A model generated the notes under the pieces. It searched no databases. It saw nothing but the letters and a program-made list of their open reading frames with translations, and was not told the origin of the DNA. From the IMG/VR virus record IMGVR_UViG_3300045743_000610, positions 1 through 24,433 of that record: a stretch of DNA of 24,433 nt, one strand, 5' to 3'. Position 1 is the first letter of the stretch. Every line of letters begins with the position of its first letter. Positions 10,054 through 24,433 of this stretch are shown here, piece by piece. The DNA comes from a virus. The translations under genes were made by a program, and so were the position numbers.

Positions 10054-10058
10054 TACTC

Positions 10059-10085
10059 GAAAAAAGAGCCGCGTGTGCGGCTCTT
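10059..10085 (-). terminator. Rho-independent terminator after the Tad2-like gene
   Basis: A 9-bp perfect stem (AAGAGCCGC / GCGGCTCTT at 10064-10072 and 10077-10085) with a 4-nt loop, followed in the minus direction by a run of T (10061-10065). It lies 20 nt after the stop of 10105-10329. A second inverted repeat, AGAAAG / CTTTCT (10089-10106), overlaps that stop. It ends the terminase-portal-scaffold transcript, so capsid expression needs its own promoter or readthrough. Confidence 0.85.
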
Positions 10086-10104
10086 CTTAGAAAGTTGAAA
10101 CTTT

Positions 10105-10329: not shown

Positions 10330-10346
10330 CTCGTTCTCCAGTGGTT

Positions 10347-10610
10347 TCAGGAATTCGCCGCCCAGTAGGCGACGCGGTGTTTCGTGCCTGCCGCTACGGC
10401 CAGGTCACGGGTGTCGTACAGGTGCACGGCGGTCTGCGTCTGCGGGTCGCCGCCCCCGTCGGGGAACAGCACCGCGTTGACCACGACCGGGCCATCGACG
10501 GTGTCGGCGTCACGGTCGCCCATCAGGCGCGTGATCAGCGCCGGGTGCTCGGTCGTGCCGTTGTAGATCGGCCCCATCACGACGATGGGGAAGCTGATGC
10601 GGGCCTTCAT
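10347..10610 (-). CDS. Hypothetical small phage protein
   Basis: 87 residues with no membrane segment. It contains PIVVMGPIYNGTTEHPALITRLM, an Asp-rich stretch DRDADTVDGPVVVNAVLF and a C-terminal AVHLYDTRDLAVAAGTKHRVAYW. I recognise no domain. The ATG overlaps the scaffold stop (ATGA), and the Tad2-like gene follows 17 bp later. Position between scaffold and Tad2 allows either a small head factor or another host-interaction protein. Confidence 0.7.
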   Translation of the reverse strand: MKARISFPIVVMGPIYNGTTEHPALITRLMGDRDADTVDGPVVVNAVLFPDGGGDPQTQTAVHLYDTRDLAVAAGTKHRVAYWAANS

Positions 10611-11620
10611 ACCAGGTCTCCGCGCATGACGGCCAGCGAGGCTTCGTTCAGCTCGCTGAAGGCCTTGTGGCTCATCTTCATGGCGTCTTTGGCCGTGATG
10701 GCACCGCCGCCCGACTTGTCGCTGTCCATGCCGGTCTTGGCCACGTTCGCGGGTGTCTTGCCGATGGTCTCGGCGGTCTTCGCCACCGCGGCCGCTTTGC
10801 GGGCAGCTTCGACGGCCTTGGGGTCAACTCGAGCCTCGGTTTCGAGGGCCTTCTCCTGCGCCTTCGTCTCCGGCGGCATCACGTAGCCGACGGCCTTCTG
10901 CAGCGCGGCGCTCGGGGTGTAGCCCTTGAGCTGGTACGCCTCTTTCAGCTCCAGCACTTCGGCGACCTTTTCCTTGTCGAAGTCGACGTGGCCGGGCTGC
11001 AGCGCAGGGTACTGGGCTTCCAGGCGATCGACCGTGGTGTCGAAGCGCACGGTCTCGACGGCGCGCGCTTCCGCGGCCGCTTCGCGCATCTGCGCGTTCT
11101 TCTCGTTGATGCCGCGCTCGGTGCGGCGGATCGTGGCCATCGTGGCAGCGGCCTTGGCGGCTTCGCCGTCGGTGATCTGCTTGGCGTACTGCTCTTCGAG
11201 CGTGAGCAGGGTCTTCTCGGCCTCGGTGATCTCGGCGTTCACCTCGGTGATCTGCTTGCCCTGCTTGTACTGGGCCAGCTCGGTTTCGACAGCCGTGCGG
11301 CGCTCGCGCTCGCGGTCGAGCATCTCCTTGTGGCGCGCCAGCGGGATCGGGCCGTCCTTCTTGCTCTTGGCGGCTTCAGCTGCAGCTGCGGCCGTGGCAT
11401 CTTCGTCCACGACCACGTCGGCCTTGAGGCCCTTCTTCTCGACATCCGGCAGGTCTTCGATCTTGGCGGTCTCGACCTTCTCCACCGGGTCGAGGCGCTT
11501 TTCCACCACGCTCTCGTCGTCGGTCGGCGTCCAGTTGTCGCCGCGGTCTTCGCTGCCGCCGCCGCCGCCCGTACCGTCATCTGCGGGCTTCATGTATCGG
11601 TGATTCTTGCGGAAGAACAT
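10607..11620 (-). CDS. Capsid scaffolding protein
   Basis: 337 residues, highly charged and Ala/Glu/Lys-rich with no hydrophobic core. After a Gly-rich acidic N-terminus (DDGTGGGGGSEDRGDNW) come a long coiled coil (about 95-200: ARHKEMLDRERERR, EAEKTLLTLEEQYAK, INEKNAQMREAAAEARA) and a compact segment YPALQPGHVDFDKEKVAEVLELKEAY (about 205-230), as seen in scaffolds of phages with P22-type portals. It acts as an internal assembly core for procapsids and leaves before DNA packaging. SD AAGGAGA lies 7 nt before ATG. Position before the capsid gene, separated by two small genes, supports the call. Confidence 0.8.
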   Translation of the reverse strand: MFFRKNHRYMKPADDGTGGGGGSEDRGDNWTPTDDESVVEKRLDPVEKVETAKIEDLPDVEKKGLKADVVVDEDATAAAAAEAAKSKKDGPIPLARHKEMLDRERERRTAVETELAQYKQGKQITEVNAEITEAEKTLLTLEEQYAKQITDGEAAKAAATMATIRRTERGINEKNAQMREAAAEARAVETVRFDTTVDRLEAQYPALQPGHVDFDKEKVAEVLELKEAYQLKGYTPSAALQKAVGYVMPPETKAQEKALETEARVDPKAVEAARKAAAVAKTAETIGKTPANVAKTGMDSDKSGGGAITAKDAMKMSHKAFSELNEASLAVMRGDLV

Positions 11621-11694
11621 CGTCTATCTCCTTGGGGTTGGTCTAGCGGTGGGCACACAAAACAAAGGTCGGCAAGCTGCGTCTTCCATGTTCT

Positions 11695-13389
11695 TTACAG
11701 CACAGCCAGCGCGGCGCGCAGGGCTTGGGCGAACTTGGAGGCGAGCAGATCGGCGCCGAGTTCGTAGTCGGGCAAGAACACACGCGAACCGGCAACCAAA
11801 GTTCCTGCCGGGTAGCCGTTGACACCCGTTAGGTTGTTGGTCGTTGCAGGCCGCGCCGTGTAGGTGCATCGCACGTCGGCGGCGTAGTCGATCTTTTCGC
11901 CGGGCGGCTGAATGCTGAGCGGGACCGTCGTGTCGGGTGCCACAGGGTTCGGGAACCCCACCGCACTCGTCAGAGGGATCGTGTCGTTCGTGCCCGTCAT
12001 GGTGGTGTTGATGGCGACGGTGGCAACAACGTACCCGCTTGGGTGCGCGCCGCTGTAGTGGTAGCGCCGAGCATTCGTCCCGACCGGGCCAAGCGAGCCA
12101 TCGGCGGCCCCCGCGCTTCCGCCTGCGGTGCTTTGCCCGGTGATCCACTGGCCTGTGCCGGTCGATCCGCTGAACGTGCTTCCGTCGCCGCGCTTGCCGC
12201 GCCATGTCGAGTCGTAGGTGTTGACCTCGATCCACGGGCCGGAGATGCCGTCCATGACACCGGACAGGGCGGCCCGGAGGGCTGGGTACTTGCTGCCGGT
12301 GCCTCCGTCTGTCAGCGTTCCATCGTCGCCAACGAACGGCTGACAGACTGCCAGCACAGCGCCTGGGGCACCGGCCCGCAAGCGCGACCAGACCGCTTGC
12401 ATTGCGCTGACCGTCGGCCACCCGGCGCCGCCCGACGGGACAGCCTCGTTGATGCCCTGCATGCCGACAATCAGGTCAGGGGCCGATGCGAGCAGATCAT
12501 CCGTTCGCGTGGTGCTGACGTTCTCGGCGGCGCCGGTTGTGTAGGTGCCCGCGTTGCCTGACATGCTGGTCAAGCTCGATGCCACGTTCGGCTGTCCGTA
12601 GCCTGTTCCGCCGTCACCCTGCGCGACCATCGCGTAGCAACCGACCAAACGCAGCGCCAACGCGGCAACACTCGTGTTCGGGTTCCGGTTGGACAGGTAG
12701 CCGGAGATCGAGTCTCCGAACTGTGCGCCGATGAACTGCGTCTTCTTCAGGTCAACCGGGACGCATACCGCAGTCGATGGCAGCGCAAGCCCACAGAAGG
12801 CTGCGCTCAGGCGCACGACGAAGTGCCGTGACACGGATGTCGGGAACACGAAATACAGCACGCCTCCGAGCGGATCTGTTGCTGGCGCAGGCGGAAGCGG
12901 CGTTGCCTCACGAAGCCCGCTGCCCTCGTCCACCAGCATGTGAACGGTCACGCCGGCCGCGCCGTACCCGCCGCAGATACCGATGACTGTCGAGTCCGTG
13001 CGGAAGCTGATCGTTGCCCCACCCGCCCCTCCAGAACGGCCGGAATACTTGAGCGATGCGCCACCGATGGTTCCGGTGACGCCAGCGACGATTCCCCACA
13101 GCGCCGCATCGAGCCCCCATGCGACCGAGCTGAACGGCGTTGCGCTGATTCCTGTCGAGCCAGCGAAGCCGTAGATCACCATGCCCGCAACGTTGCCGGG
13201 GTTGGCGGCTCCGCGAAGCAAAACCCCACCAACCAGCGTGCCCGCAGCGGCACCCTGCGCTCCCCGAACCACGACGGGCGGGGATGCCAACGCCGGCCAG
13301 CTTTGCGCCGCGACACTGGCGGCCTGTTTGACCTTGCGCGTCGGGTTGCGCGCGGAGAACGGCGCAGCCCCGATGAGAGCGGGGTTCAA
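11695..13389 (-). CDS. SGNH/GDSL-hydrolase-like tail protein
   Basis: 564 residues if started at TTG 13387-13389, which overlaps the upstream stop as TTGA; sequence upstream of this TTG in the same frame is shadow of the preceding gene. The N-terminal about 210 residues are Gly/Ala/Val-rich beta-like sequence. From about 216 an SGNH-type hydrolase is visible: block I FIGAQFGDSISG with nucleophile Ser227, block III-like VGMQGINEAV with Asn314, and block V AHPSGYVVA with His449. The Asp normally three residues before this His is Ser446 here. Related enzymes deacetylate or de-esterify surface polysaccharides. Third codon positions are less G/C-biased than in portal or capsid genes. Confidence 0.7.
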   Translation of the reverse strand: MNPALIGAAPFSARNPTRKVKQAASVAAQSWPALASPPVVVRGAQGAAAGTLVGGVLLRGAANPGNVAGMVIYGFAGSTGISATPFSSVAWGLDAALWGIVAGVTGTIGGASLKYSGRSGGAGGATISFRTDSTVIGICGGYGAAGVTVHMLVDEGSGLREATPLPPAPATDPLGGVLYFVFPTSVSRHFVVRLSAAFCGLALPSTAVCVPVDLKKTQFIGAQFGDSISGYLSNRNPNTSVAALALRLVGCYAMVAQGDGGTGYGQPNVASSLTSMSGNAGTYTTGAAENVSTTRTDDLLASAPDLIVGMQGINEAVPSGGAGWPTVSAMQAVWSRLRAGAPGAVLAVCQPFVGDDGTLTDGGTGSKYPALRAALSGVMDGISGPWIEVNTYDSTWRGKRGDGSTFSGSTGTGQWITGQSTAGGSAGAADGSLGPVGTNARRYHYSGAHPSGYVVATVAINTTMTGTNDTIPLTSAVGFPNPVAPDTTVPLSIQPPGEKIDYAADVRCTYTARPATTNNLTGVNGYPAGTLVAGSRVFLPDYELGADLLASKFAQALRAALAVL

Positions 13390-14969
13390 GCCGTGCCCCA
13401 GTGAGCGCGCTGGTTTGCTGCCAGCGTGTCTCTGTTGCCGTTCGTGAGTGCATCGGCGAACCAGATCATTTCCGCGAAGCGGCCATCCCACTGTGCGTTC
13501 GCGCTGCCGCCGTTGTCTTGGAACAGGGAGACAGTAGCCGGGGTGGTCACTCCAGCGTACTGGTTGCCGACGCCAGTTGTGATTGCCGCGAGTGCGGCAC
13601 CGTCGACACGAGCATTCTGGTTCGCGCCGTTACGGATACGGTCTACCTGACGAAGAACCGTCAGGCTTGAGAATGCGGCCGACGCGTAGTTCGGCTCGAC
13701 GTTCGTGAAGGCCGCGTTAAGCGTGAAGTTTCCTGCGATGCCGAGGATTCGCATGGTGCCGGCTGCCGTGTTGAGCAGGCTTCGACCCTGACCCGATCCG
13801 CCCGCTCCATCAACGACGCAGAAGACACCCGCGAAGCTTGACCCACTTGCGGCAGAGATAAGCCCGCCCTCCGGTGGCATTGATGCCGTGAACAAGGAAT
13901 TGCTGGGCATCACCGAGTAGCGAGTGAATGCCCCGACTGTGATGGCCGTCAGCAGAGGCCTTGATGTGCCGCCAATGAAGGTGAAGTCGCGGGCGAAGCC
14001 GGATTGGTCGTACAGGCGGTCGAGATAGACCGAGCCGCCCGGCAGGCCCGTGATAGTGCCGTCCGGGCCTGCGGAAATGTCCGTTGTCGTGCCGCCCGTC
14101 GCTGACGTGCTGACACGAATGATCGGGCCGACGTACCCGGTGCGAAGCCGGCGATTGACGGAAAGCGCGAAGGATGAGGTTTGACCGAAGCCGTCCAGAA
14201 TGCCGATGAACGACTGCACCGCAACACTCATGTTGCTCCAGGCGAACAGGAGATTGCCGGCCACGTCCACCATTCGCTGCGCGAGCAAGCCCCGAGTCGG
14301 GTCGTAGCTGACAGAGGTTACGTCCCCAGGCGTCGCGGCCCGATTGGTCACAAGGCGAACGGTGGTGCTGTTGGGCAACGAGACACCAGTGACGGTATCC
14401 ACCTGTGCGCCGCCGTTGGCCGTCACAAGGGCGAACTTGGAAGCCTCAGGTACGGCGCCAGTGTTGATGGCGGCGGTCAGGGTGATGTCGAGCTGGCTCG
14501 GTGCAACCGTGCCCGACTTCACTGCGGCAGAAGGCACCGGCACCGTGATGGGGGCGTTGGAGTTTTGCGTGATGGCGTAGTACGTCGTCCAGCCATCGAA
14601 CCAGAAGACGATTGTGTTGATCGCCCCGGCTGTTGCGTTCCAGCCTGCGCTGCCGCCCCACTCCGTCATGCCGGTAAACGTCGGGGTGATGACGCCGTTC
14701 GCTGCGAGCTTGACGGTGCATTGGCCCCCGATTACAGGCGTGCCAGAGACAGAGAACGCCGTCGCAGAAACGATGTCCTGCGGCGTGGGCGTCATGTACT
14801 TGTTGCCGTCCAGAGGTATGGCGGCGCTGAACGCAACCGCAACGCCGGCGCCACCCCCGCCTGGAGAGAACCCGTCAAAGTAGACCTTTTCGGCTCCGTT
14901 CGACAGCCCGATCACTCGACCCGTGCCGGCTTCTCGGATGAAATCTGCTGTGCTGCACTCGCCTGCCAT
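13386..14969 (-). CDS. Tail fibre/receptor-binding protein with Ig-like and LamG-like domains
   Basis: 527 residues, no signal peptide. The N-terminal part (1-147) has a glycine linker SPGGGGAG and a strand-rich region. Residues about 148-224 (QLDITLTAAINTGAVPEASKF, then a turn and TSVSYDP) match a SwmB-type Ig-like repeat. Residues about 266-527 hold SVNRRLRTGYVGPIIRV, LDRLYDQSGFARDF and a C-terminal GRFAEMIWFADALT, the pattern of concanavalin-like lectin domains related to the arabinofuranosidase B beta-sandwich. These suggest carbohydrate binding at the host surface. SD AAGGAC precedes the ATG. It is followed by the hydrolase gene with a 4-nt overlap, and both lie oddly between portal and scaffold. 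Codon usage is less G/C-biased than its neighbours. Confidence 0.75.
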   Translation of the reverse strand: MAGECSTADFIREAGTGRVIGLSNGAEKVYFDGFSPGGGGAGVAVAFSAAIPLDGNKYMTPTPQDIVSATAFSVSGTPVIGGQCTVKLAANGVITPTFTGMTEWGGSAGWNATAGAINTIVFWFDGWTTYYAITQNSNAPITVPVPSAAVKSGTVAPSQLDITLTAAINTGAVPEASKFALVTANGGAQVDTVTGVSLPNSTTVRLVTNRAATPGDVTSVSYDPTRGLLAQRMVDVAGNLLFAWSNMSVAVQSFIGILDGFGQTSSFALSVNRRLRTGYVGPIIRVSTSATGGTTTDISAGPDGTITGLPGGSVYLDRLYDQSGFARDFTFIGGTSRPLLTAITVGAFTRYSVMPSNSLFTASMPPEGGLISAASGSSFAGVFCVVDGAGGSGQGRSLLNTAAGTMRILGIAGNFTLNAAFTNVEPNYASAAFSSLTVLRQVDRIRNGANQNARVDGAALAAITTGVGNQYAGVTTPATVSLFQDNGGSANAQWDGRFAEMIWFADALTNGNRDTLAANQRAHWGTA

Positions 14970-14981
14970 GATGTTTGTCCT

Positions 14982-17111
14982 TTAGGGTTGAGCGAAGGAA
15001 ACTTTGCCGGCGGCGGCTGTCTTGGCGGCCATCGCGCGATCCGTGACCGCCTTGTCGGCGGCGGCCTTCGCGGCCTGCTGCTGCTTGACCTCTTGGTCCT
15101 GCGCCTTCAGGCGCAAGCCAGCAACGTCGAGCTGCTTCTTGTGGTCGAACTCACGTTCTTTCAGGTCCATGCCGTGCTGGGCCTCAGCGACCTTGACGGC
15201 GCTGTCGGCGCCGTCGTCAGCCGGCTCGCCCTGCAGCTCGGTCTGCGTCTTGGCGAGGGTTTCTTGCGTCTTGGCCTGCTTGAGCCCGGCGTCGGCGTGC
15301 TTGACCATGCCCTCGCCCTGCACCTTGACGACTTCGGCGTCGAGCAACGCCTGCTGGCTGGCGGCTTGCGCCTGAGCGGCTTCGCTGCTTGCTTCGGCGG
15401 TCATCTGCTCGAGAATTTCGGCCTTGTCGAGCAGGCGGCTGTTCTTGATGAGCACGCTGTCAGGGATCTTGACGCCGAGTTCGCGCAGCGCGACCGCCTG
15501 GTCGAACTGACTGTCTTCGAGCGTCTCTTTGTGCGGCACCGACGTGATGACGACACCGAACTCGCCGAGCATGAGGTCGTTGATGACTTCGCCGGTGTCG
15601 GGATCGACCTGGTTGATGGCCACGTCTTCCGTCTCGCCGGTCATGGAGTCCTTCAGCACCGTCAGGATGCGCGCTTCGGTGTAGTGCTCTTGCACCAGGT
15701 CGAGCGTGTTGCGGGCGATGAAGAAGTCGGTGCGCACGAGGTTGTCGAGCGGCTTGACGAGGTTCGTCGAACCTGACTTCTTCTTTTCCTGGATCGCTTT
15801 GGCCGCCACGTCTTCGCGGTCGAAGCCCTGCATGGAGTCGGAGACGCCGGAGATGCTCTTGATCGACTCTTCGGCCTTGAAGCTCATGCGGTCGAGGCCT
15901 TGCGGCGTCGCGTTCGGCGTGAGCTTCTCGATGCCTTCGAGTTCAGACACTTCGAGCACGATGCCGGTCTCGGAGCCGCGCTGTTCCAGCTCTTCGATCG
16001 TCATGTTCGTGAGCACGCCGGCCTTGACCTTCCAGCCGGAGTTCGCGGTCGTGTTGAGCACGTGCAGCTCTTGGCTGGTGACCTTGTTCAGCAGCTCCTG
16101 CGGGCCGGTGAGGTTCTCAACCAGGCCGATGGTCGTACCGCGGCGGAAGTGCGGGAAGTACGGCACCGGCGTGAAGTGCTTGTACGGGCTCCACTCGTCG
16201 TGCAGCACCACGTCGTCGGCGATCACGGTCCACTTGATGCGGCGGACGAGCTTCTTGACGACCTTGAAGCCGAACTTGTCGACGAAGAACGCGATGCGGT
16301 TGCGGTCGAAGTCCTTCGGGATCGGGCGCATGTCGCCGGTCTCGGTCTCGACGAAGTGCTTCTGCACGTCGAGTTCGCGGTACTGGCGCTCGATCAGCCG
16401 GATGCTGCGCTGGACGTTGCTCTGATCCCAGCCGTTCGCGCCCCAGCCGTTGTTCATGCGGGTGCCGAAGCGGTCGCGGTTCGCCTCGATGGAGTCGTAG
16501 CCGTACATGAAGGCGCTGGACCCGCGGTTGCGCAGGTAGTCGGCGTCTTCCTTGTTGTAGAGGATCGCGATGTCGTCGGCGGTGACCCACTTCGTCACGA
16601 AGACCTCGGACCACGTGTCGGGGTCGTACTGGTCGCCGTCGGGGTCAGGGATGACGTTCTTCGGGTTCAGCAGCTCGTAGCGCACCTCGCCCTGCATCTG
16701 GTCGTTGTAGTCGAGTCGGATGTCGAGGTAGCCGCGCGAGCCGATGATGCCGTCGGCGAACATGTCGCTGCGCTTCCAGTCGAGCTGGTTCGCGTCGGCG
16801 ATCTGCTTGAACACCTTGTTGAGCACGTCGGCGGTGCCGGCCTTCGAGCCGTTGCGTGGCCGGAACGCGATCTCGCTGCGGTTGGCGATCTGCTCGCCGA
16901 GCACGTTGCCCACGGTGCCGAGGATCTTGTTGATCGTCAGCGCCGGGCGGCGGATCAGCGCGAGCTTGGCCTTGTCGACGATGTCCCACTGGTCGCCCGC
17001 GAAGTGGCGCTCGCAGAGGTCGGCCTTGAGCACGTAACGGCTGTGGCCGTTGTCGCGCGCCCAGCTGTAGCGATTCCAGACCTTTGTGGCGACGGCGGTG
17101 TTAACGGGCAT
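14982..17111 (-). CDS. Portal protein, P22-like
   Basis: 709 residues. The N-terminal half has RYVLKADLCERHFAGDQWD, RPALTINKILGTVGNVLGEQ and DGIIGSRGYLDIRLDY, then ELLNPKNVIPDPDG and YFPHFRRGTTIGLVENL, which are typical of P22-type portals; the dodecameric ring forms the DNA entry channel and tail attachment site. The last about 170 residues are Ala/Gln/Lys/Glu-rich coiled coil (EASSEAAQAQAASQQALL onward), comparable to the long C-terminal helical barrel of P22 portal. Length is close to P22 gp1 (725 aa). It is followed by the fibre gene and preceded by the Dps-like gene. Codon usage is strongly G/C-biased. Confidence 0.9.
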   Translation of the reverse strand: MPVNTAVATKVWNRYSWARDNGHSRYVLKADLCERHFAGDQWDIVDKAKLALIRRPALTINKILGTVGNVLGEQIANRSEIAFRPRNGSKAGTADVLNKVFKQIADANQLDWKRSDMFADGIIGSRGYLDIRLDYNDQMQGEVRYELLNPKNVIPDPDGDQYDPDTWSEVFVTKWVTADDIAILYNKEDADYLRNRGSSAFMYGYDSIEANRDRFGTRMNNGWGANGWDQSNVQRSIRLIERQYRELDVQKHFVETETGDMRPIPKDFDRNRIAFFVDKFGFKVVKKLVRRIKWTVIADDVVLHDEWSPYKHFTPVPYFPHFRRGTTIGLVENLTGPQELLNKVTSQELHVLNTTANSGWKVKAGVLTNMTIEELEQRGSETGIVLEVSELEGIEKLTPNATPQGLDRMSFKAEESIKSISGVSDSMQGFDREDVAAKAIQEKKKSGSTNLVKPLDNLVRTDFFIARNTLDLVQEHYTEARILTVLKDSMTGETEDVAINQVDPDTGEVINDLMLGEFGVVITSVPHKETLEDSQFDQAVALRELGVKIPDSVLIKNSRLLDKAEILEQMTAEASSEAAQAQAASQQALLDAEVVKVQGEGMVKHADAGLKQAKTQETLAKTQTELQGEPADDGADSAVKVAEAQHGMDLKEREFDHKKQLDVAGLRLKAQDQEVKQQQAAKAAADKAVTDRAMAAKTAAAGKVSFAQP

Positions 17112-17120
17112 GGTGCGGCC

Positions 17121-17489
17121 TCACTTCAGGAACTTGAGCTTGTAGAACGTGCGGTCGATCGTCGAGAGAATCTCGTCGATCAGGTTCGCCAGCTCTGTGT
17201 CATCACCCGCGCACTCGGCGCGGTGGGCAACGACCCACTTGTGCAGCTCCGGGAGGCATTCGAGGGGGCTGCACCCCGCCTCGGGTTTGATGGATGGGTA
17301 GGAAGCGATGTGGCCGTTCACGCCCTGGTAGCACTCGATGAAAGCGTCGGCCTTGGCCGCGATCTCGTCGTAGAACTCACCGAGCGCGACGTGCTGCGCG
17401 TAGCTGCGCGTCGCGAGGTGGGCGAAGTGCGTCGTGGTCCGTGCGTCGAAGCAGCGGGCCACGAGTTCAGCGGCGAGTTTTGCGGTCAT
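17121..17489 (-). CDS. Dps/ferritin-like phage protein (DUF5856-like)
   Basis: 122 residues, mostly helical. The segment from His21 to Glu52 (HFAHLATRSYAQHVALGEFY, then DEIAAKADAFIE) places His21, His33, Asp48 and Glu52 with spacings of 12, 15 and 4 residues. These equal the spacings of E. coli Dps ferroxidase ligands His51, His63, Asp78 and Glu82. The HxxLGEFYDxI..AD..IE text also fits the phage DUF5856 family. Unlike Dps (167 aa) it is short, with probably one four-helix core and little tail, and ends in a Lys-containing helix (RTFYKLKFLK). It may bind iron or protect DNA, or be a structural relative. It lies between a lectin-like gene and portal. Confidence 0.65.
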   Translation of the reverse strand: MTAKLAAELVARCFDARTTTHFAHLATRSYAQHVALGEFYDEIAAKADAFIECYQGVNGHIASYPSIKPEAGCSPLECLPELHKWVVAHRAECAGDDTELANLIDEILSTIDRTFYKLKFLK

Positions 17490-17504
17490 GGCGTGCTTTC
17501 AAGA

Positions 17505-18203
17505 TCAAACCGTCTCGTAGGCGTCAAGGAAGCCAGTCCAGAAGGCGGCGGCGGGCGGCGTCACAAGTCCTTCGTCGATCTGAACCGACGAGATGCCGCA
17601 CTTGGCGGCCAGCACGATCGCAAAGGTGTCGAAGAGGGAGCCGCCCAGCGACTGCGAACGGACGCCGACGCTGACGCCGTTAATGAAGACTTCGTACTGC
17701 GTGGCGGAAAACTCAAAGCGCAAGTCGAACGGATCACCCGTGACCGGGTACAAGACTTCGGAGTAGGCCGGGAAGTCGACTTCGGCCCAGATGTTGCGGC
17801 CGATGGGTCGGCTGGTGTAAGTGGGGTTGTCCTTGGACTTGACGTTTACGTAGCCACCGTGGAAGAACTGCCCAGTGTTTGATGCGGTGACCTGCATCTC
17901 AGCTACGAAGCCGCCGTTACACACTGTGCCGGTCGAGCTGGCAATCGCGCCCCCCGCGTCACGCTGAGAGACGCCAGTTATCGAGATCGACCCAAACGCC
18001 ATCGGCGGGACAGTGACCTGGAAGGTGCAAACGGTGTTGGTGGCGTCGTTGTTGTAAACGAACCCTGTGCCGCTGAGCGACAAGCCTGCACAGCTGCCCA
18101 ACGCCGTGGGGCCGGTAACCGGCGCGACGGCCGGGCTGAACACCGCGAGGCCGGCGTTGACGGCGCTGGCCCCCGAAAACAACTCCTGGTAGACGATCGT
18201 CAT
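17505..18203 (-). CDS. Lectin-like (concanavalin-type) virion protein
   Basis: 232 residues, Gly/Ser/Val-rich and beta-predicted. Segments WAEVDFPAYSEVLYPVTGDPFDLRF and EVFINGVSVGVRSQSLGG followed by KCGISSVQIDEG resemble the back sheet of LamG/galectin-like sandwiches, where an EVxINGxxV strand pair is common. There is no export signal. It starts 1 bp after the large terminase stop, so it is co-transcribed with packaging genes. It might be a head-surface or tail sugar-binding protein; the function is inferred and no catalytic motif is seen. Confidence 0.55.
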   Translation of the reverse strand: MTIVYQELFSGASAVNAGLAVFSPAVAPVTGPTALGSCAGLSLSGTGFVYNNDATNTVCTFQVTVPPMAFGSISITGVSQRDAGGAIASSTGTVCNGGFVAEMQVTASNTGQFFHGGYVNVKSKDNPTYTSRPIGRNIWAEVDFPAYSEVLYPVTGDPFDLRFEFSATQYEVFINGVSVGVRSQSLGGSLFDTFAIVLAAKCGISSVQIDEGLVTPPAAAFWTGFLDAYETV

Positions 18204-18204
18204 G

Positions 18205-19791
18205 TCAGGCCGCCATGTGGCTCGCGCCGTTGCTACCGACTTTGATCTGGTCTTTCCACGATTTCATCTTCGGCGGTTCCTGTTTGCGTGGCGGCTCTTT
18301 GCCGAGCGCCAGGTGTGCGGCCCATGCCAGGCTGTCGACGCAGTCGTCGTGCAGACCTGCCGGGAAGCGGAGCATTTCTGCCCGCACCACGTCGTACCAA
18401 TCACCCGTGTCGTTGAAACTCACCATGCCCTGCTGCATGCGGCCCTGAAGTGGCCGTGCCCGCACCAGCTTGTCGGTCAGAGGTTTGAGCGTCGTGACCG
18501 ACGGGTAGAACTTCTTTTCACGCATGCGCTTCTTGAGAAGCACCTCCAGCGTGCGGAAGATCTGACCGTCTTCAAACCCCAGCTGCATCCCAGCGTTTGC
18601 CCACCTCTGACTTAGACCTAAGATAGATTCTACGATGAATGAGGCATCGTTAGATTTGAAGCGCACGACTTCGGCCACATGGAGCGTGTCGTTCTGGTCC
18701 TGCAGCACCACGGTGCCGACGGTGTAGTCGTTCTGCTGCTTGATGCTGATCGCGAAGTCCCACGCGATGTAGACGTGGGCGTTTCGGAGCGGCGGGAGCC
18801 CGCCGCGACGGAATTGGTCCTTCGTGAAGTAGTCGCCGTCGTCAGGCACCGGGTTCTGCTGGTACAGGGCGCTCCAGAAGCGCGGCGGCAGCGTCTTCTT
18901 GATCCGATTCAGCTTGAGGGAGTCGTAGCGCTCTTCGTGGAGCGGCGCGCCCTTCGCGCGCAGGAACTGCAGGTGCTGGAGGTGCGGCTGCGTAGCGATG
19001 AACACGTCGCGCTGCATGTCAGTCCAGCCGAGCTGCATGCCGGCATCGAGTCGGACGATCTCGTCGGTGCTCGGGTCGACCCATTCGTCGTGCTCGGCGA
19101 TCGCCGGGTACTTCACGATCTCGAACTGGTCCGACTCGGGGTCTTCCTTCATCGCTTCCTGCAGCCGGCCGGCCAGGTCGTCGTCGTTCCACCACGTTTC
19201 GATGACCAGCACGCCGCCGCCGGGCGCGAGACGCGTGTAGGCGGTCGAGCCGTACCAGTTCCAGAGCTTTTCGCGCACGTCGGCGCTGTCCGCTTCCTCT
19301 GCGTTCTTGATCGGGTCGTCGATCAGCAAGATGTTGCAGCCCTTGCCCGTGATACCGCCGCCGACACCCGCTGCGACGTAGCCGCCGCGCGAGTTTTCGA
19401 TGCCCCATTCCTCGCTGGACTGGTGATTCGGGTTCAGGCGCGTGCCGAAGACCGACTGGTAGTTCGGATCTTCGAGAACTTCCTTGACCTTGCGCGAGAA
19501 CGTCATCGCCAAGCTCACGTTGTACGAGCAGGCGATGATTTCGTGGTCGCTGTGGCGCCCGAGGTGCCACGCGGGGAACATCCGGCTGGCCAGCTCGGAC
19601 TTTCCGTGCCGCGGCGGCATCAGGATCATGAGCCGGGGGCTCAAGCCCTTCGCTACGTCGTCGCTGAAGCGCTCCAGGCGGCGCGCGATGTCGTTGTGGA
19701 CCCAGCCAGCGTGGTACCGGGGGTTAATCCGCTGCGTGAAAGGGATCAAACGCCGCTTGCAGATCACGCGCTGCGCCAGCTCGCGCTGCAT
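18205..19791 (-). CDS. terL: Terminase large subunit (packaging ATPase/nuclease)
   Basis: 528 residues from the ATG at 19791. Walker A is MPPRHGKS (58-65), Walker B ILLIDDP (154-160), and a coupling-type segment VIETWWNDDDLAG follows at about 196-208 (many relatives have TRWH here). The RNase H-like nuclease domain shows AWDFAIS (Asp345), GFEDGQ (Glu407) and HDDCVDSLAWA (Asp482/483). It pumps DNA through the portal and cuts concatemers. A longer frame to 20037 exists, but the extra 82 residues are Ser/Thr/Pro/Ala-rich with weak third-position bias, while another frame there looks coding. The chosen ATG lacks an SD and probably relies on coupling, so the start is less certain than the gene. 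Confidence 0.9.
   Translation of the reverse strand: MQRELAQRVICKRRLIPFTQRINPRYHAGWVHNDIARRLERFSDDVAKGLSPRLMILMPPRHGKSELASRMFPAWHLGRHSDHEIIACSYNVSLAMTFSRKVKEVLEDPNYQSVFGTRLNPNHQSSEEWGIENSRGGYVAAGVGGGITGKGCNILLIDDPIKNAEEADSADVREKLWNWYGSTAYTRLAPGGGVLVIETWWNDDDLAGRLQEAMKEDPESDQFEIVKYPAIAEHDEWVDPSTDEIVRLDAGMQLGWTDMQRDVFIATQPHLQHLQFLRAKGAPLHEERYDSLKLNRIKKTLPPRFWSALYQQNPVPDDGDYFTKDQFRRGGLPPLRNAHVYIAWDFAISIKQQNDYTVGTVVLQDQNDTLHVAEVVRFKSNDASFIVESILGLSQRWANAGMQLGFEDGQIFRTLEVLLKKRMREKKFYPSVTTLKPLTDKLVRARPLQGRMQQGMVSFNDTGDWYDVVRAEMLRFPAGLHDDCVDSLAWAAHLALGKEPPRKQEPPKMKSWKDQIKVGSNGASHMAA
18611..18657. promoter_or_regulatory. A+T-rich motif cluster inside terL (site F)
   Basis: The plus strand carries CTTAGACCTAAGATAGATTC and, 19 nt later, GTTAGATTT. 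Both resemble the TTAGAYC/CTAAG motif found before capsid, small terminase and tail genes. Over the same stretch terL abandons its usual codons and uses TCT, TTA, CTA, AGT, AGG and GTA within about 20 codons (around SNDASFIVESILGLSQR). This local change suggests selection on the DNA rather than the protein. Confidence 0.4.
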
Positions 19792-20508: not shown

Positions 20509-20795
20509 AACGCGGCTGAAAGGTAGACGATGAGCGCGCCGGCGAACGTAGCCACGGCGTCGAGCGGATCGACGCTGTGCGTCGGCGTGAGGCCCGCTTC
20601 GAGGGCCTCAGCTTCACGGTCGCCGTCCCAGAGTTCCTTCAGCACCCCGACGGCCAGGGCCGCCAGCAGCGCAGCTTCACGGTAGCCGTGCACGCTGATG
20701 GCTTGCCCGAGCCCGGCCACCACGAGGTAGACGAGCGCGCCGTAAATGACGTGGTTGGCCTTGTCTTGTGGGATCAACAGGTCTGAGAGTTTCAT
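20505..20795 (-). CDS. Small phage membrane protein
   Basis: 96 residues with DKANHVIYGALVYLVVAGLG (about 11-30), AALLAALAVGVLKELWDGDRE (about 41-61) and a last segment DPLDAVATFAGALIVYLSAAL (about 76-96), so two to three membrane spans. The pattern DKxNH...G..KE..D......D..D..AT..G is one I recall from phage and bacterial membrane proteins of unknown function. The conserved His/Asp/Glu/Lys residues next to spans could be functional. The ATG overlaps the small terminase stop (ATGA). It might be a second holin-like protein, though it is far from the lysis cassette. Confidence 0.65.
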   Translation of the reverse strand: MKLSDLLIPQDKANHVIYGALVYLVVAGLGQAISVHGYREAALLAALAVGVLKELWDGDREAEALEAGLTPTHSVDPLDAVATFAGALIVYLSAAL

Positions 20796-21379
20796 TCGTC
20801 GTTCTCCAGTTGAAGGGCATCACCCTTGGTGATGAAGTCCAGGATTTCGGCGTCACTCATGCGGTTCAGGCGGTCGTTGATGACGTTGCCGTTCACGGTG
20901 ATGTCGAGCTTCCGGGTGACGGGCTCGTAGTAGCCGCACATCTTTCCGATCTCGCGCGCTGCGCTGACCATCGAGGCGGGCTCGGAGACCATCTTTGCGG
21001 CCTCGTAGCTTTCCAGCAGCATGTCCATGACCTTCTTGCGGGTCATCTGCGCGGCTTCCTCGTACTTGAGCTTCTCGTCGTTGTAGATCGCCAGGATGTT
21101 GGGCTGGCGGACCAGGCGGTAGCCGTAGGTCGCGCAGCCCTCGTAGCCGGCACGCGCTGCGGCCGTGACGATGGACTCGCCTTGCGCCCAGAGCTTCGCG
21201 AAGAGCTTCTGCTTCTCGGTGGGCGGCTTGTTTGGGTCAATCGCTTCTGCGTTGCCTTCGAGCGAAGTGTCTCGGCCGATGGCGCGGACTTCGCTGACTT
21301 GCAGCGGACGGATCGGGTCAGCCGCCTTGCGCTTGCGGGGGTTTTCAGTCAGGACGATTGGCTTGGCGGCGCGTGGCAT
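20792..21379 (-). CDS. terS: Terminase small subunit
   Basis: 195 residues. A basic N-terminal arm (PRKRKAADPIR) is followed by a helix-turn-helix region PTEKQKLFAKLWAQGESIVTAA through YGYRLVRQPNI (about 53-95), then a helical oligomerisation region EEAAQMTRKKVMDMLLESYEAA and MVSAAREIGKMCGYYEP (about 107-152), the usual Terminase_2 arrangement. It recognises the packaging site and feeds DNA to TerL. It is the first gene of the minus-strand block; the ATG lacks an SD and has an A+T-rich motif 16 nt upstream. A packaging site may lie in or next to this gene. Confidence 0.82.
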   Translation of the reverse strand: MPRAAKPIVLTENPRKRKAADPIRPLQVSEVRAIGRDTSLEGNAEAIDPNKPPTEKQKLFAKLWAQGESIVTAAARAGYEGCATYGYRLVRQPNILAIYNDEKLKYEEAAQMTRKKVMDMLLESYEAAKMVSEPASMVSAAREIGKMCGYYEPVTRKLDITVNGNVINDRLNRMSDAEILDFITKGDALQLENDE

Positions 21380-21390
21380 GCGCGCAAGTC

Positions 21391-21407
21391 TAACTTAGAT
21401 CGAAGTT
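21391..21407 (-). promoter_or_regulatory. A+T-rich motif before small terminase gene (site C)
   Basis: The plus strand reads TAACTTAGATCGAAGTT. The TTAGATCGAAGTT core is shared with site B, and the TAACTTAG part forms a short dyad (CTAA-G-TTAG on the minus strand). It lies 12-16 nt before the terS ATG. This is the most likely control element for the whole late/packaging operon, by position and similarity to sites A and B. Confidence 0.5.
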
Positions 21408-21413
21408 TTGGCC

Positions 21414-21443
21414 GTGACGGAGCGGGGGAACGGGGTGACGGAG
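21414..21443. repeat. Direct repeats GTGACGGAG in divergent region
   Basis: Two exact copies of GTGACGGAG at 21414-21422 and 21435-21443 start 21 bp apart, about two helical turns, so a protein could bind both on one DNA face. They lie between the terS start and the first plus-strand gene. They are candidate operators, or a terminase-binding site given terS next door. Confidence 0.4.
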
Positions 21444-21464
21444 TAGCTGGGTGATTTCGCCGCG

Positions 21465-21485
21465 GAAATTTTTCTTGAAATTTTT
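21465..21485. promoter_or_regulatory. Tandem GAAATTTTT A+T-rich element
   Basis: Two copies of GAAATTTTT (21465-21473 and 21477-21485) with a 12-bp period, in an otherwise very GC-rich region. This is the most A+T-rich spot in the divergent gap and could be an UP-like element or a melting region for the plus-strand promoter. I could not place convincing -35 and -10 boxes around it. Confidence 0.3.
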
Positions 21486-21590
21486 AGGAATACGTCGGCG
21501 TGAGTCTCTTCCCCCCGGTCTCCCGATCCGACCCCCCGGTTCGGATTCGGATCTCGCACCGGAGGGAAAGGAGTCTCTTGCCCCAGGGCA

Positions 21591-21643
21591 GGAGCGTTCG
21601 TTCCGAACGCTCCGTCTCTCCGCGGTTGTGTTCTTCGTCTCTC
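21591..21643 (+). promoter_or_regulatory. Leader hairpin with conserved 3' tail (module 1)
   Basis: A perfect 10-bp stem (GGAGCGTTCG / CGAACGCTCC) has loop TTC, then GTCTCTCCGCGG and TTGTGTTCTTC, then a second GTCTCTC before AACCCTTTAGGAG. The tail after the stem is 21 of 23 identical to module 2 at 22467-22512, where the stem has a different sequence but the same length and loop. There is no U-run, so it is not a typical terminator. It lies 52 nt before the ATG at 21666, within its likely 5' UTR. Confidence 0.6.
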
Positions 21644-21665
21644 AACCCTTTAGGAGTTCACCATC

Positions 21666-21962
21666 ATGAACGCAGCTTCGATCAAGGCTTCCCTCGTCGA
21701 CGAGTCCACACAGCGCCAGGTGTGCGGCTTCATCGGTGCTTTCGTCACCACCTTCGTGGCCATGTCACTCAGCTACGCAGTGCTCAGCCTCCTGCTCTGG
21801 AGCTGGCTCGCGTGGCTCATCAGCGCCATCGGCGCCATGGTGCTCGGCCACCACGCTGGCACGTTCATGGCCACCAGTGGCTACGACCACGCCGTCAACG
21901 GCTGCGCGTCCGTGCTCACGTTCTTCCGTGCGGTGAAGGCCAAGGCCGCTCCCGCGCGCTGA
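21666..21962 (+). CDS. Two-span membrane protein, first plus-strand gene
   Basis: 98 residues. Two hydrophobic segments lie at about 20-44 (CGFIGAFVTTFVAMSLSYAV) and 46-66 (SWLAWLISAIGAMVLGHHAG), with a short hydrophilic N-terminus and a basic C-terminus (FFRAVKAKAAPAR). A perfect SD (AGGAG) and TTCACC precede the ATG, a start context reused by several genes in this block. No known family was recognised. As first gene after the divergent region it is probably expressed early; it could act at the host membrane, for example in superinfection exclusion, but that is a guess. Confidence 0.75.
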   Translation: MNAASIKASLVDESTQRQVCGFIGAFVTTFVAMSLSYAVLSLLLWSWLAWLISAIGAMVLGHHAGTFMATSGYDHAVNGCASVLTFFRAVKAKAAPAR

Positions 21963-21965
21963 ACC

Positions 21966-22046
21966 ATGTTCGCCCTGCTCACCCTCGCATGCGCCCTTGT
22001 GGGCGCATGGCTCGGCCACCGCATCTGCGTGTGGCTCGGTATCTAA
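21966..22046 (+). CDS. 26-residue single-span membrane peptide
   Basis: The ATG follows the previous stop by 3 nt (TGAACCATG) and the frame closes at TAA 22044-22046. The peptide begins MFALLTLACALVGAWLGHRI and ends CVWLGI: one hydrophobic span with two cysteines. There is no SD, so translation likely depends on the upstream gene. It fills the space exactly between two genes, which supports it being real despite its size. Confidence 0.5.
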   Translation: MFALLTLACALVGAWLGHRICVWLGI

Positions 22047-22078
22047 GCCTTCTCTCACACCAATCTAAGGAGCCCACC

Positions 22079-22360
22079 ATGGCCGCACTCACCAAAGCCC
22101 AGCTCGTCGCCCAACTCGAAGCCTCGCACGTGTCGTACGAGAAGCTTGTCGCTGAACGCGACTCGCTTCGCGGCGAACTCGCGCTTGCGCAGCACACCAT
22201 CGCGGCTCACGCCGCCGGGGCCAAGCCCCTGCCTGCGAAGTTCCTTCGCTACCAGCCCAGCCCCGAGGCTGTGTCGGCACACGACGCCTACGTGGCGCGT
22301 TGCGCAGCAGCTCGTGCCCTGGCCATGCGCGGTGGCATCAGCGTGCGGGTGGCAGCGTGA
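22079..22360 (+). CDS. Coiled-coil small protein
   Basis: 93 residues. The first half (TKAQLVAQLEASHVSYEKLV and ERDSLRGELALAQHTI) has heptad-like spacing of leucines and should form a coiled coil; the second half (LPAKFLRYQPSPEAVSAHDAY, then CAAARALAMRGG) is mixed. The SD is AAGGAG, 8 nt before the ATG at 22079. It is the only clearly soluble protein between membrane-peptide genes and could be a cytoplasmic partner of them. No recognised domain. Confidence 0.7.
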   Translation: MAALTKAQLVAQLEASHVSYEKLVAERDSLRGELALAQHTIAAHAAGAKPLPAKFLRYQPSPEAVSAHDAYVARCAAARALAMRGGISVRVAA

Positions 22361-22455
22361 GCGAGTTCATCTTCGCCCACTTCGTCGAGTGCGTTGCACT
22401 CGTCGACCTGCTGCTCATCGCCATCGTGGCTTGGGTCGTCGTCTATCGCGACTGA
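22357..22455 (+). CDS. 32-residue single-span membrane peptide
   Basis: A GTG start overlaps the previous stop as GTGA and the frame ends at TGA 22453-22455. The peptide is MSEFIFAHFVECVALVDLLL followed by IAIVAWVVVYRD: a strong hydrophobic span (about 10-29) with a charged end. Composition and the exact 4-nt overlap support translation. Unknown function; it resembles the 26- and 25-residue peptides elsewhere in the window in layout, not in sequence. Confidence 0.55.
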   Translation: MSEFIFAHFVECVALVDLLLIAIVAWVVVYRD

Positions 22456-22466
22456 GCCACTGTGTT

Positions 22467-22520
22467 CGAGCCGGCGTTCCGCCGGCTCGGTCTCTCTGCG
22501 TTTGTGTTCTTCAACCCTAG
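22467..22520 (+). promoter_or_regulatory. Leader hairpin with conserved 3' tail (module 2)
   Basis: A perfect 10-bp stem (CGAGCCGGCG / CGCCGGCTCG) with TTC loop, then GTCTCTCTGCGT and TTGTGTTCTTC, then AACCCTAGGAG. Against module 1 the stem bases differ at most positions yet stay paired, while loop and tail are kept. This is compensatory change expected of a structured RNA leader. It lies 39 nt before the ATG at 22529. Confidence 0.65.
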
Positions 22521-22528
22521 GAGATGCC

Positions 22529-22720
22529 ATGGCTTCGTGCCTTGACAACCTGTACGCGGCTCAACGCCGCATCGACGCCAAGTCTGCGCAGTACGACGTA
22601 CTGCGCAAGCCGCTCAACGCGGCCTTCATCGCTGGCCGCCTCGACTACGACGCCTACATGGCTCGCAGTCAGCGGCTCAACGAGCGGTTCCGGCGCGAGC
22701 TGAGCCGCATCCACCTCTGA
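22529..22720 (+). CDS. Small basic helical protein
   Basis: 63 residues from ATG 22529-22531, with AGGAG 6 nt upstream; a frame extending upstream to 22394 would cross the previous gene and hairpin and was rejected. The product is helical and basic (YAAQRRIDAKSAQYDVLRKP, then YMARSQRLNERFRRELSRIHL). It could bind nucleic acid or protein; no domain recognised. It is the first gene after leader module 2. Confidence 0.7.
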   Translation: MASCLDNLYAAQRRIDAKSAQYDVLRKPLNAAFIAGRLDYDAYMARSQRLNERFRRELSRIHL

Positions 22721-22729
22721 ACTCAGCGT

Positions 22730-22752
22730 TATGCCCGGCGTGTCTGGGCATA
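22730..22752 (+). promoter_or_regulatory. Leader hairpin 3
   Basis: A 9-bp stem (TATGCCCGG / CTGGGCATA with one G-T pair) and a 5-nt loop, 10 nt after the previous stop and 40 nt before the ATG at 22793. There is no U-run. It lacks the conserved tail of modules 1 and 2 but occupies the same position relative to the start codon. A short GGCG/CGCC inverted repeat follows. Confidence 0.45.
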
Positions 22753-22792
22753 CCGGCGCGTTCGCCACCAACCACACCACTAGGAGTTCACC

Positions 22793-23320
22793 ATGTCTGC
22801 ATTCGCTTCCAAGTTCGCTGCCAAGTCCTCGACCACTGCGGCTCGTGCCGCCAAGCAACCGCGTGCCAAGCGCGTGGTAGCTGAGCGCGACGAGGCCACG
22901 CCCGTCGAGCCCATCAACGTGGACGCGATGCGCATGCACGCGGAGCACGTGGCTCAGGCGCAAGACGAGTTCACGTTCGTCACGGCCACGCCGTCTGGCA
23001 CTCGCCAGCTCATCGGCACGTTGGCTTGGATGCTCACGTACGCGTCCAGCTTCTACTGGGGGTTGGTGCTCACCGACATGCTGCTCGTGGCGGCTGCGGC
23101 GTTCACCAGCAGCGGCTTCTTGCTGTTCCTCGTGGCCTTCGTCGGTCTGATGATGGCCGTCGTCGGCGGCATCTCGCTCGCGAGTTCCGCCTACAAGTTC
23201 GTGATCGAGTTCAACCCCGGCACGTTCGCCGCCATCGGCCACGACATCAAGGCCTCGACCAAGTCGAAGGTCTCGCTCGTGCGTGGCTGGTTCACCAACA
23301 CGAACGAGGTGGCAGCATGA
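22793..23320 (+). CDS. Membrane protein with basic N-terminal domain
   Basis: 175 residues. Residues 1-70 are hydrophilic and basic (AARAAKQPRAKRVVAERDEA), then two membrane segments at about 73-103 (including YWGLVLTDMLLVAAAAF) and about 108-133 (GFLLFLVAFVGLMMAVVGG), then a C-terminal cytoplasmic-like tail with Lys/Arg (DIKASTKSKVSLVRGWF). The SD context is AGGAGTTCACCATG. Its stop overlaps the next gene's ATG (ATGA), so it is coupled to another membrane protein, suggesting a two-component membrane complex. No family recognised with confidence. Confidence 0.75.
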   Translation: MSAFASKFAAKSSTTAARAAKQPRAKRVVAERDEATPVEPINVDAMRMHAEHVAQAQDEFTFVTATPSGTRQLIGTLAWMLTYASSFYWGLVLTDMLLVAAAAFTSSGFLLFLVAFVGLMMAVVGGISLASSAYKFVIEFNPGTFAAIGHDIKASTKSKVSLVRGWFTNTNEVAA

Positions 23321-23595
23321 TCGAAATGGGTCTCGTCGTAGCCCTCGGGCTCATCGTCACGTTCTGCAAGCTGAGCTGGCGGAACAAGCTGCGGATGCTC
23401 AGTCATCCACTGCTCATGGACGTTGCGATCTTCGCGCTCCTGTGCTTCCTGCACTGGGGCACGTACAGCGGCGTCATGGTCGCCACCGTCGGTGCGCTCA
23501 CATGCAGCTTGCTGCTCGCGGCTGGCCGTTGGGCATTCGGCTACATGAAGGCTGGCAAGTATGTGCCAGGCAAGTGGATCGTGAAAGGCGTGTAG
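23317..23595 (+). CDS. Multi-span membrane protein
   Basis: 92 residues. Hydrophobic segments lie at about 3-17 (EMGLVVALGLIVTFC), 31-47 (PLLMDVAIFALLCFLHW) and 52-70 (GVMVATVGALTCSLLLAAG), with a basic loop (SWRNKLRML) after the first and a positively charged end (YMKAGKYVPGKWIVKGV). The HPLLMDVAIFALLCFLHWGT-like middle and the aromatic/basic end are reminiscent of small membrane proteins I recall in other tailed phages, function unknown. The ATG overlaps the previous stop. It is probably a partner of the 175-residue protein. Confidence 0.7.
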   Translation: MIEMGLVVALGLIVTFCKLSWRNKLRMLSHPLLMDVAIFALLCFLHWGTYSGVMVATVGALTCSLLLAAGRWAFGYMKAGKYVPGKWIVKGV

Positions 23596-23778
23596 ATGAA
23601 CACTCTCTCAACCCGCACTCGGCTGCTCATGGATGAGCAGACCAAGCAAGCCAATCAGTGCCGTGAACTCGGCGCTGACCTCTACGTCGACGACGAGGAT
23701 TACGAGGCCGACTCCGACATGTTCGGTGCCGACCCGTTCGACATCCTCGCCTTCAAGCAGGAACAAGGAGACCACTGA
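23596..23778 (+). CDS. Small acidic protein
   Basis: 60 residues starting directly after the previous stop (TAGATG). The second half is very acidic (LYVDDEDYEADSDMFGADPF). Small acidic early phage proteins often mimic DNA or bind host enzymes, but nothing here shows a target. The end (FKQEQGDH) runs into GGAGACCACTGATG, where a second ATG overlaps the stop but is followed after one codon by TAG. Confidence 0.65.
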   Translation: MNTLSTRTRLLMDEQTKQANQCRELGADLYVDDEDYEADSDMFGADPFDILAFKQEQGDH

Positions 23779-24412
23779 TGACGTAGACCGTCGCGACTCT
23801 CAGGTTCGTCAGCATCACATAGCTGTCAGGTGAGCCTCGGCTGCAATGCCGTTTGCCTCTGCGTGCCTCACACGCAGCGTGTCCGGGTTGGGTCCGGCTC
23901 GTGAACATCAACACGCACTACGCGGAGCGACCCACTAGCTCGCTGGACAACGTCACCAGCAACCTACCCGACCGCTGCTCAGGGATGAGCGGCTACAACC
24001 AAGGAGTTCACACATGGGCAACCTGTGCGCGTAAGGAACATCGCGCCCTCGCTCCCGCTTCAACTCCACCCTGCCTGACATGGCGATGCAACACATCGCA
24101 GCCTTGGGCATGACAGTTGAGCGGATCAACTACTGCATCGCATTGCGCGAGCACAGAGCCTCACATCGGCTCCAGTGTCAACGGCCGTTACGTGTCTCAC
24201 GTCGAGCCCAACGACCTGCAACACACCACCCGAAGCGCGCATCGTAGACACGAGCGCCCGGCCCGGCTGAGCTGCCGAGTCACCAACCCATCCGTAGTGA
24301 ATGCCTCCACGTCACGGCATCTCGTTCCCGCAGGCTGTCGCTACAGCCGCCGCATGAGCACCCCGTCAAGGGCTCACTTCAACCTCAACCCGAAACCACT
24401 AGGAGTTACACC
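23779..24412 (+). pseudogene. 634-bp stretch without an intact gene; probable broken coding sequence
   Basis: No frame gives a convincing intact protein. Two well-placed starts abort at once: ATG ACG TAG at 23778-23786, overlapping the upstream stop, and ATG 24014 behind AAGGAGTTCACAC, which stops after six codons (MGNLCA). Natural-looking peptide fragments appear in different frames, for example DMAMQHIAALGMTVERINYC (about 24080-24139) and, shifted, IGSSVNGRYVSHVEPNDL (about 24159-24212). A 7-bp hairpin CTGCGTG/CACGCAG lies at 23859-23877 and a GGCTGT/ACAGCC hairpin at 24333-24348. It may be one or two genes with frameshifts, or sequencing indels. No tRNA was recognised. Confidence 0.35.
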
Positions 24413-24433
24413 ATGTCCCGTACCCACACCATC
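24413..24433 (+). CDS. Start of next plus-strand gene, cut by window edge
   Basis: ATG at 24413 preceded by CTAGGAGTTACACC, the same SD context used by the other early genes. Only seven codons (MSRTHTI) are visible, too few for any identification. Confidence 0.55.

Follow-up and report, generated by a model that had tools for sequence, protein, structure and literature searches.

A conserved small membrane protein shared by KPP25-like podoviruses and satellite-like bacterial islands

The IMG/VR virus record IMGVR_UViG_3300045743_000610 is a single contig of 24,433 bases, covered in full by the stretch of DNA analyzed here (the window), and probably represents part of a larger genome. At 21666-23778 on its plus strand lie eight consecutive small open reading frames (ORFs; g1 to g8), and this membrane-focused module is the promoter-proximal portion of the non-structural operon in a KPP25-like podovirus. 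Computational comparison found the operon conserved in dozens of KPP25-like contigs; its core is g7, plus g6 within the window's clade. The 92-aa protein g7 has homologs at 50 viral loci (profile search) and 36 loci in bacterial genomes (genome scan), and the g7-bearing bacterial islands have the marks, in gene content and attachment-site (att) repeats, of satellites resembling phage-inducible chromosomal islands (PICIs). A cis element of ~80 bp heads the g7 operon in the phages and in about half of the tested islands. That a small membrane protein keeps invariant residues in both a lytic-type phage lineage and satellite-like islands of bacterial chromosomes suggests that the two share an important step at the inner membrane.

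The window phage is a distant relative of the Kochitakasuvirus KPP25, and its large terminase subunit (TerL) is 43% identical to those of KPP25, phiR18 and relatives; a nucleotide search with the whole window against the phage collection returned no match. Structural and lysis genes occupy the minus strand from 1 to 21379, with terL and the small terminase subunit gene (terS) at the end, and the plus-strand arm, which the module opens, diverges from there. KPP25 and related kochitakasuviruses resemble the window in having a g7 homolog (ORF031, phrog_29412) divergent from the structural arm, as well as TerL, TerS and the cis element, although g7 identity between KPP25 and the window is ~30%, and g1, g6 and g8 were not detected in KPP25 by sequence. 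The features of the divergent region and the module are as follows.

20792-21379, minus strand: terS, first gene of the divergent structural arm (PF03592, E = 1.1e-6; phrog_51, E = 2.9e-11), the reference for island homologs
21502-21583, plus strand: conserved cis element heading the non-structural operon; a CT-rich block, the core CCCCCCGGTTCGGATTCGGATC, then AAAGGAGTCTCTT, with inverted-repeat arms in the window phage
21591-21636, plus strand: leader ahead of g1, a perfect 10-bp hairpin followed by TTGTGTTCTTC; a second copy (80% of 45 nt) precedes g5 at 22468-22512
21666-21962, plus strand: g1, 98 aa, two predicted membrane helices; distant g6 relative and possible paralog
21966-22046, plus strand: g2, 26-aa single-helix ORF with equivalents by position in some relatives
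22079-22360, plus strand: g3, 93 aa, coiled-coil type; 74% identity to relative L005 and 45% to relative L002
22357-22455, plus strand: g4, 32-aa single-helix protein with a GTG start and a 4-nt overlap with g3; equivalents of ~29-37 aa in relatives
22529-22720, plus strand: g5, 63 aa, basic (+5), helical; weak match to phrog_17754 (E = 0.006), a family without assigned function
22793-23320, plus strand: g6, 175 aa, with a basic disordered N-terminus, membrane hairpin and C-terminal helix; 26-member family
23317-23595, plus strand: g7, 92 aa, three predicted membrane helices and a C-terminal beta hairpin; phrog_29412 family
23596-23778, plus strand: g8, 60 aa, acidic (charge -10), with a DPxDI-type C-terminus; similar in L005 and L002

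A first-pass annotation, made from the letters alone, had described these genes as a cluster of tiny membrane proteins belonging to no nameable family, with the 93/32-aa and 175/92-aa pairs coupled by 4-nt overlaps, and had suggested superinfection exclusion, anti-defense or membrane remodeling as possible roles of such an early set. All eight ORFs were recovered on the plus strand at the lengths it gave, the overlaps are present (GTGA at g3/g4 and ATGA at g6/g7), and Kyte-Doolittle hydropathy scans, on which all membrane-segment calls here are based, place membrane segments in the five proteins expected (g1, g2, g4, g6 and g7). Good Shine-Dalgarno sites precede g1, g3, g5 and g6. None of the eight could be assigned to a named family in Pfam, NCBIfam, PADLOC or PHROG, the first three of which gave sub-threshold matches at most (e.g., g1 to PF04226, E = 0.0025, and g7 to PF25323, E = 0.04, neither of which was used). 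Head, tail and connector families were likewise without a match to any of the eight, and among lysis families the only match was between g2 and a holin PHROG (E = 0.09). The structural or lysis assignment that would have refuted the first-pass reading, by its own account, did not emerge from these searches. The lysis genes that were found, encoding an endolysin (phrog_181, E = 1.4e-67) and an Rz-like spanin, lie at 6136-7358 in the structural arm, outside the module operon. The description of a membrane-focused gene set without a named family, syntenic and placed at the start of the non-structural arm, therefore holds. Membrane ORFs make up 5/8 of the module and 7/23 of the structural arm by the same crude predictor, a difference that is not significant (Fisher P = 0.12), and hence the case for the module rests on conservation.

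Relatives were gathered both via TerL (28 loci) and via the g7 profile (50 viral loci), with gene starts set by a simple Shine-Dalgarno caller. Two of them, L005 and L002, retain g3, g6, g7 and g8, and L005 also retains g1. Across 23 further KPP25-like loci, the stretch from terS to g7 repeats the layout of small membrane and coiled-coil ORFs with variations, and the synteny proposed as a check by the first-pass annotation was thereby recovered. The recurring order is a coiled-coil ORF, at least one tiny one-helix ORF, often a two-helix ORF of ~105 aa, a protein of 131-244 aa that has two helices and a charged N-terminus, and then g7, which the preceding gene overlaps by 4 nt in many of these loci. 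Because the small-membrane-ORF pattern recurs in this way, the 26-aa and 32-aa ORFs (g2 and g4) are probably real. Within their own clade, g6 and g7 remain paired, and Agrobacterium phage Atu_ph02 again has a three-helix and a two-helix protein encoded with an overlap; the g3/g4 pair recurs within KPP25-like phages. In the other g7 clade (L007, L009, L011, L012, L017, L024 and L027), the g7 partner is smaller or lies farther from g7. The g7 strand is divergent from terS in every viral locus whose fetched stretch included both genes, and in KPP25 the strand carrying ORF031 runs on into helicase, polymerase and exonuclease genes. Judged by this position, the g7 operon may be expressed early or in the middle of infection; a scan of 20800-24433 for a sigma-70 promoter consensus gave no match.

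The g7 protein matches phrog_29412, a family without assigned function, over the membrane region (E = 7.9e-7), as did all 14 of the tested family members. An alignment of 73 members contains eight invariant residues (H46, G48, T49, G52, M54, A56, G75 and G85) and the motif H-x-G-T-F-x-G-x-M-x-A. The structure model (predicted local distance difference test, pLDDT, 86) consists of helices and a beta hairpin at the C-terminus, and when combined with hydropathy it can be read as having three membrane helices. The nearest predicted viral structures are those of phiR18 (TM-score 0.86) and of uncharacterized Rhizobium and Agrobacterium phage proteins (0.70 and 0.69). A fold comparison against the PDB gave PomA (Z = 5.7, the best value) and comparable matches, which were treated as chance since helical bundles reach higher values by chance, and a PDB sequence search with the g7 profile gave no match. 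Profile searches further identified homologs in the Autographiviridae Stappia phage SI01 (E = 2.7e-10) and Agrobacterium phage Atu_ph02 (E = 1.6e-9). Both homologs lie amid small ORFs on the strand of the replication genes, and that of Atu_ph02 is followed and overlapped by a 59-aa two-helix ORF.

In its phage-wide form, within the divergent region, the cis element consists of a CT-rich stretch, the core ACCCCACTTCGGATTCGG and then a AAGGAGTCTC- or AAGGGGACCC-like stretch. Allowing at most 4/20 mismatches, the core was found in 32 of 42 KPP25-like loci compared to 1 of 210 shuffled sequences, and upstream of g7 in 11 of 23 island loci compared to 0 of 256 control windows; in those 11 islands, it is always oriented along the g7 operon. 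The exact two-part pattern occurs in 46 of 2.9 million viral contigs, with a TerS homolog upstream on the opposite strand in 45 (the remaining contig piece begins just before the element), and KPP25 carries the element with 3 mismatches. We considered whether it could be a packaging (pac) site. However, in KPP25 and the islands the element stays by g7 and the early operon even where terS lies 1.5-8 kb away, and a promoter or leader of the early operon is for this reason preferred over a possible pac site. The consensus RNA structure comprises only two pairs, folds predicted from single sequences score well in some phages (z of about -2 to -4) and poorly in islands, and comparison with Rfam yielded nothing usable. 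Given such weak and patchy folding, we treat it as a sequence element, and one that, being shared, ties phage and island operons together. In the leader downstream, the two copies of the 45-nt repeat (21592-21636 and 22468-22512) each comprise a strong hairpin and then GTCTCTCxGCGxTTGTGTTCTTC, and several relatives also have TTGTGTTCTTC-like stretches downstream of the cis element.

Among the 36 bacterial g7 loci, three (L082-L084) lie in phage regions of the KPP25 type that include portal, terL and terS, and the other 33 are non-phage. The anti-restriction gene ArdC follows g7 in 27 of these 33, usually together with RadC, a Sak-type annealing protein and a YqaJ nuclease, in the order g7-(2TM protein)-ArdC-RadC-Sak-YqaJ, where 2TM denotes two transmembrane segments. 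Read outward, the islands comprise an integrase, an AlpA-like helix-turn-helix (HTH) protein, a primase, TerS on the opposite strand, the g7 operon and a tRNA gene at the end. Pfam searches for the first three, which covered N-terminal pieces from only two islands, identified the integrase arm-binding domain PF13356 in Rhodoferax sp. KJN.1 (G006), and HTH_17 (below cut-off) and PriCT_1 in Ottowia thiooxydans (G012). Exact 48-49-nt repeats of the tRNA 3' end bound the islands of Acidovorax sp. 210-6 (G001; ~18.5 kb), G006 (~14.3 kb) and G012 (~7.4 kb), the last of which carries integrase, HTH regulator, primase, TerS and g7 without ArdC; a search of G002 and G003 gave no such repeats. TerS proteins from five island loci (L119, L122, L126, L130 and L101) score 78-114 bits against a KPP25-like TerS profile, on which KPP25 itself scores 103 bits and phiA008 38 bits. 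The islands gave no portal match, and the ORFs read showed neither a capsid gene nor one for a large terminase.

In a survey of 300 Burkholderiales genomes, five carried a clear g7, and four of the five strong TerS matches were in g7-positive genomes (in G004 and G196 on contigs other than that of g7); no TerS was found in the g7-positive G002. Phage and island g7 sequences separate almost cleanly in a tree, the best split placing one island sequence among those of phages, which we take to be that of L099, as it has a phage-type start. The possibility that the islands are leading regions of plasmids or of integrative and conjugative elements is argued against by a plasmid search with island g7, which found nothing, and a relaxase search did not single out the g7-bearing islands. 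Between TerS and g7, the Acidovorax island (L119) carries HsdS-, HsdM- and HsdR-like ORFs (type I restriction-like, by eye), a set whose gene content suggests that these islands may contain a cargo or defense hotspot.

Some islands also encode a two-helix protein of 113-120 aa between g7 and ArdC, which may be related to g6. The AlphaFold2 model of g6 (pLDDT 80 overall) has a helical hairpin (residues 69-104 and 108-138), a C-terminal helix (142-168) and a basic N-terminal tail that is disordered, with low confidence. A direct search with g6 returned no matches. Profile comparison by hhalign matched the islands' protein to g6 at 83% (score 37.5, against 25.2 for the best of 30 column-shuffled controls and 16 for the reversed profile) and g1 to g6 at 90% (41.2, best control 25.7), although these are single comparisons of membrane proteins and thus suggestive. 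Hence, g1 is a probable g6 paralog by profile similarity. The islands' profile does not match g7, and its comparison with g1 gave no support for a relationship. Unlike g6, the islands' two-helix proteins lack a long basic N-terminus.

PICIs (PMC6092414) share with the g7 islands an integrase, AlpA-like HTH protein, primase, TerS and tRNA integration, and the absence of capsid and large-terminase genes among the ORFs read. The g7 islands differ in carrying g7, the ArdC-RadC-Sak-YqaJ set and the KPP25-like cis element and in occurring in Burkholderiales and relatives; neither Acidovorax, Burkholderia nor betaproteobacteria appears in the text of PMC6092414. Phage-inducible chromosomal minimalist islands (PICMIs), satellites of virulent phages, are likewise small islands, and the g7 islands may similarly depend on virulent phages, whereas PICMIs are integrated next to fis, lack terS and are known from Vibrionaceae (PMC10803314). 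Literature searches returned no description of the g7 island group and no such satellite-helper system for Burkholderiales. To our knowledge, this island group has not been described.

We infer that the islands could be satellites of this KPP25-like lineage. It is quite possible, if short of an even chance, that KPP25-like podoviruses and PICI-like islands of Betaproteobacteria are helper and satellite, and that the islands copy the phage TerS, the early-operon element and the conserved inner-membrane protein, the latter serving hijack or mutual exclusion. If so, this would be an undescribed membrane-level step in satellite-helper conflict, and one protein, one partner and one DNA element would offer a concrete handle on satellite-helper interaction in Burkholderiales.

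Most phage early genes are uncharacterized. Phage and island alike arrive in a new cell and compete there, and a conserved three-helix protein heading the operon, beside an anti-restriction gene in the islands, fits an entry-stage inner-membrane role. The presence of g7 and the cis element in PICI-like islands, often by ArdC, strengthens the case for a role in entry or conflict without proving it. We thus tentatively favor, without considering it probable, an inner-membrane factor at the entry stage, involved in superinfection exclusion or establishment, and rank it ahead of an anti-defense function and then of replication anchoring. Under this proposal, we infer that g7, with its three predicted helices, and g6, with its two-helix hairpin and basic cytoplasmic tail, would form an inner-membrane unit, with g1 and the tiny membrane and coiled-coil proteins as possible further partners. 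The unit would act at the inner membrane soon after DNA entry, and could close or alter the DNA-entry site such that competing phages cannot inject. T4 Imm, P22 SieA and HK97 gp15 are small phage inner-membrane proteins that act against later infection; the module resembles them in encoding small inner-membrane proteins, and it has no PHROG or Pfam match to such families.

The location of the endolysin and spanin genes outside the g7 operon supports an entry-stage role, although several points weigh against it. Exclusion proteins engaged in an arms race are not usually so strongly conserved in sequence, and such conservation would fit a fixed host target, or a different role, just as well; a satellite, moreover, has little to gain by excluding its own helper. 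In addition, no module protein matched a superinfection-exclusion family in PHROG, Pfam, NCBIfam or PADLOC, no solved structure clearly resembles g7 (best Z = 5.7), and the linkage to ArdC seen in islands is not seen in phages.

This last point bears also on an anti-defense or anti-restriction function, in which the membrane unit would counter membrane-linked or entry-stage host defense and shield incoming phage or island DNA along with ArdC-type proteins. The placement of g7 upstream of ArdC in 27/33 bacterial loci, usually with RadC and recombination genes behind it, is in its favor, as both ArdC and RadC are among the conflict genes described in PMC5512222. Nonetheless, KPP25-like loci have no ArdC beside g7, the 7.4-kb island carries g7 without it, and no matches were obtained to PADLOC models, the sole defense-type models searched; we regard this function as somewhat unlikely. 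A role in replication or recombination, with g6 and g7 anchoring the DNA of phage or island, together with replication proteins, at the inner membrane, appears unlikely. It would be consistent with the basic disordered N-terminus and membrane hairpin of g6, and with the location of g7 on the strand that carries the replication genes of KPP25, SI01 and Atu_ph02 and beside Sak and YqaJ in islands, but the islands' two-helix proteins have no long basic N-terminus and g7 has no soluble domain apart from its short beta hairpin.

That these are instead small membrane ORFs with neither a relationship nor a joint function, carried along in a variable region, is improbable. While g1, g3, g6 and g8 diverge fast, with clear sequence matches in few close relatives, and the within-window membrane enrichment is not significant, g7 keeps its invariant residues across 73 sequences and equivalents by position recur in dozens of loci. 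Least probable is control of lysis timing or membrane energy, a role suggested by LidI of the Vibrio cholerae PLE (phage-inducible chromosomal island-like element), which is, like g7 by description, a small transmembrane satellite protein without recognizable domains or family, but which appears late and alters phage lysis (PMC7182436), whereas g7 heads the non-structural operon and the window's endolysin and spanin genes are in the structural arm.

Other observations concern the wider KPP25-like group and the end of the window. A second viral contig (L029; 24,228 bases) is 99.99% identical to window positions 8208-18312 over 10.1 kb, and thus represents nearly the same phage in another record. 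In several KPP25-like contigs (L040, L044, L046, L048, L049, L054, L063 and L075), the terL match is split, with hundreds of bases between the parts, a pattern resembling interruption by introns or inteins. Some members of the lineage may be integrated, given that the KPP25-like region of L084 sits in the middle of a 136,613-base bacterial contig (Herminiimonas sp. CN) and that an IMG/VR virus record of 67.8 kb (L054) carries the same g7. Finally, the ~630 bp after g8 (23779-24413) gave no Rfam match and contain no convincing ORF, yet are conserved in L005 (80% over 90 nt and 78.5% over 135 nt). Within them are a Shine-Dalgarno site and a six-codon ORF with its ATG at 24014 (M-G-N-L-C-A-stop; M-P-N-V-C-A in L005), and the region perhaps encodes a leader peptide or an RNA gene.

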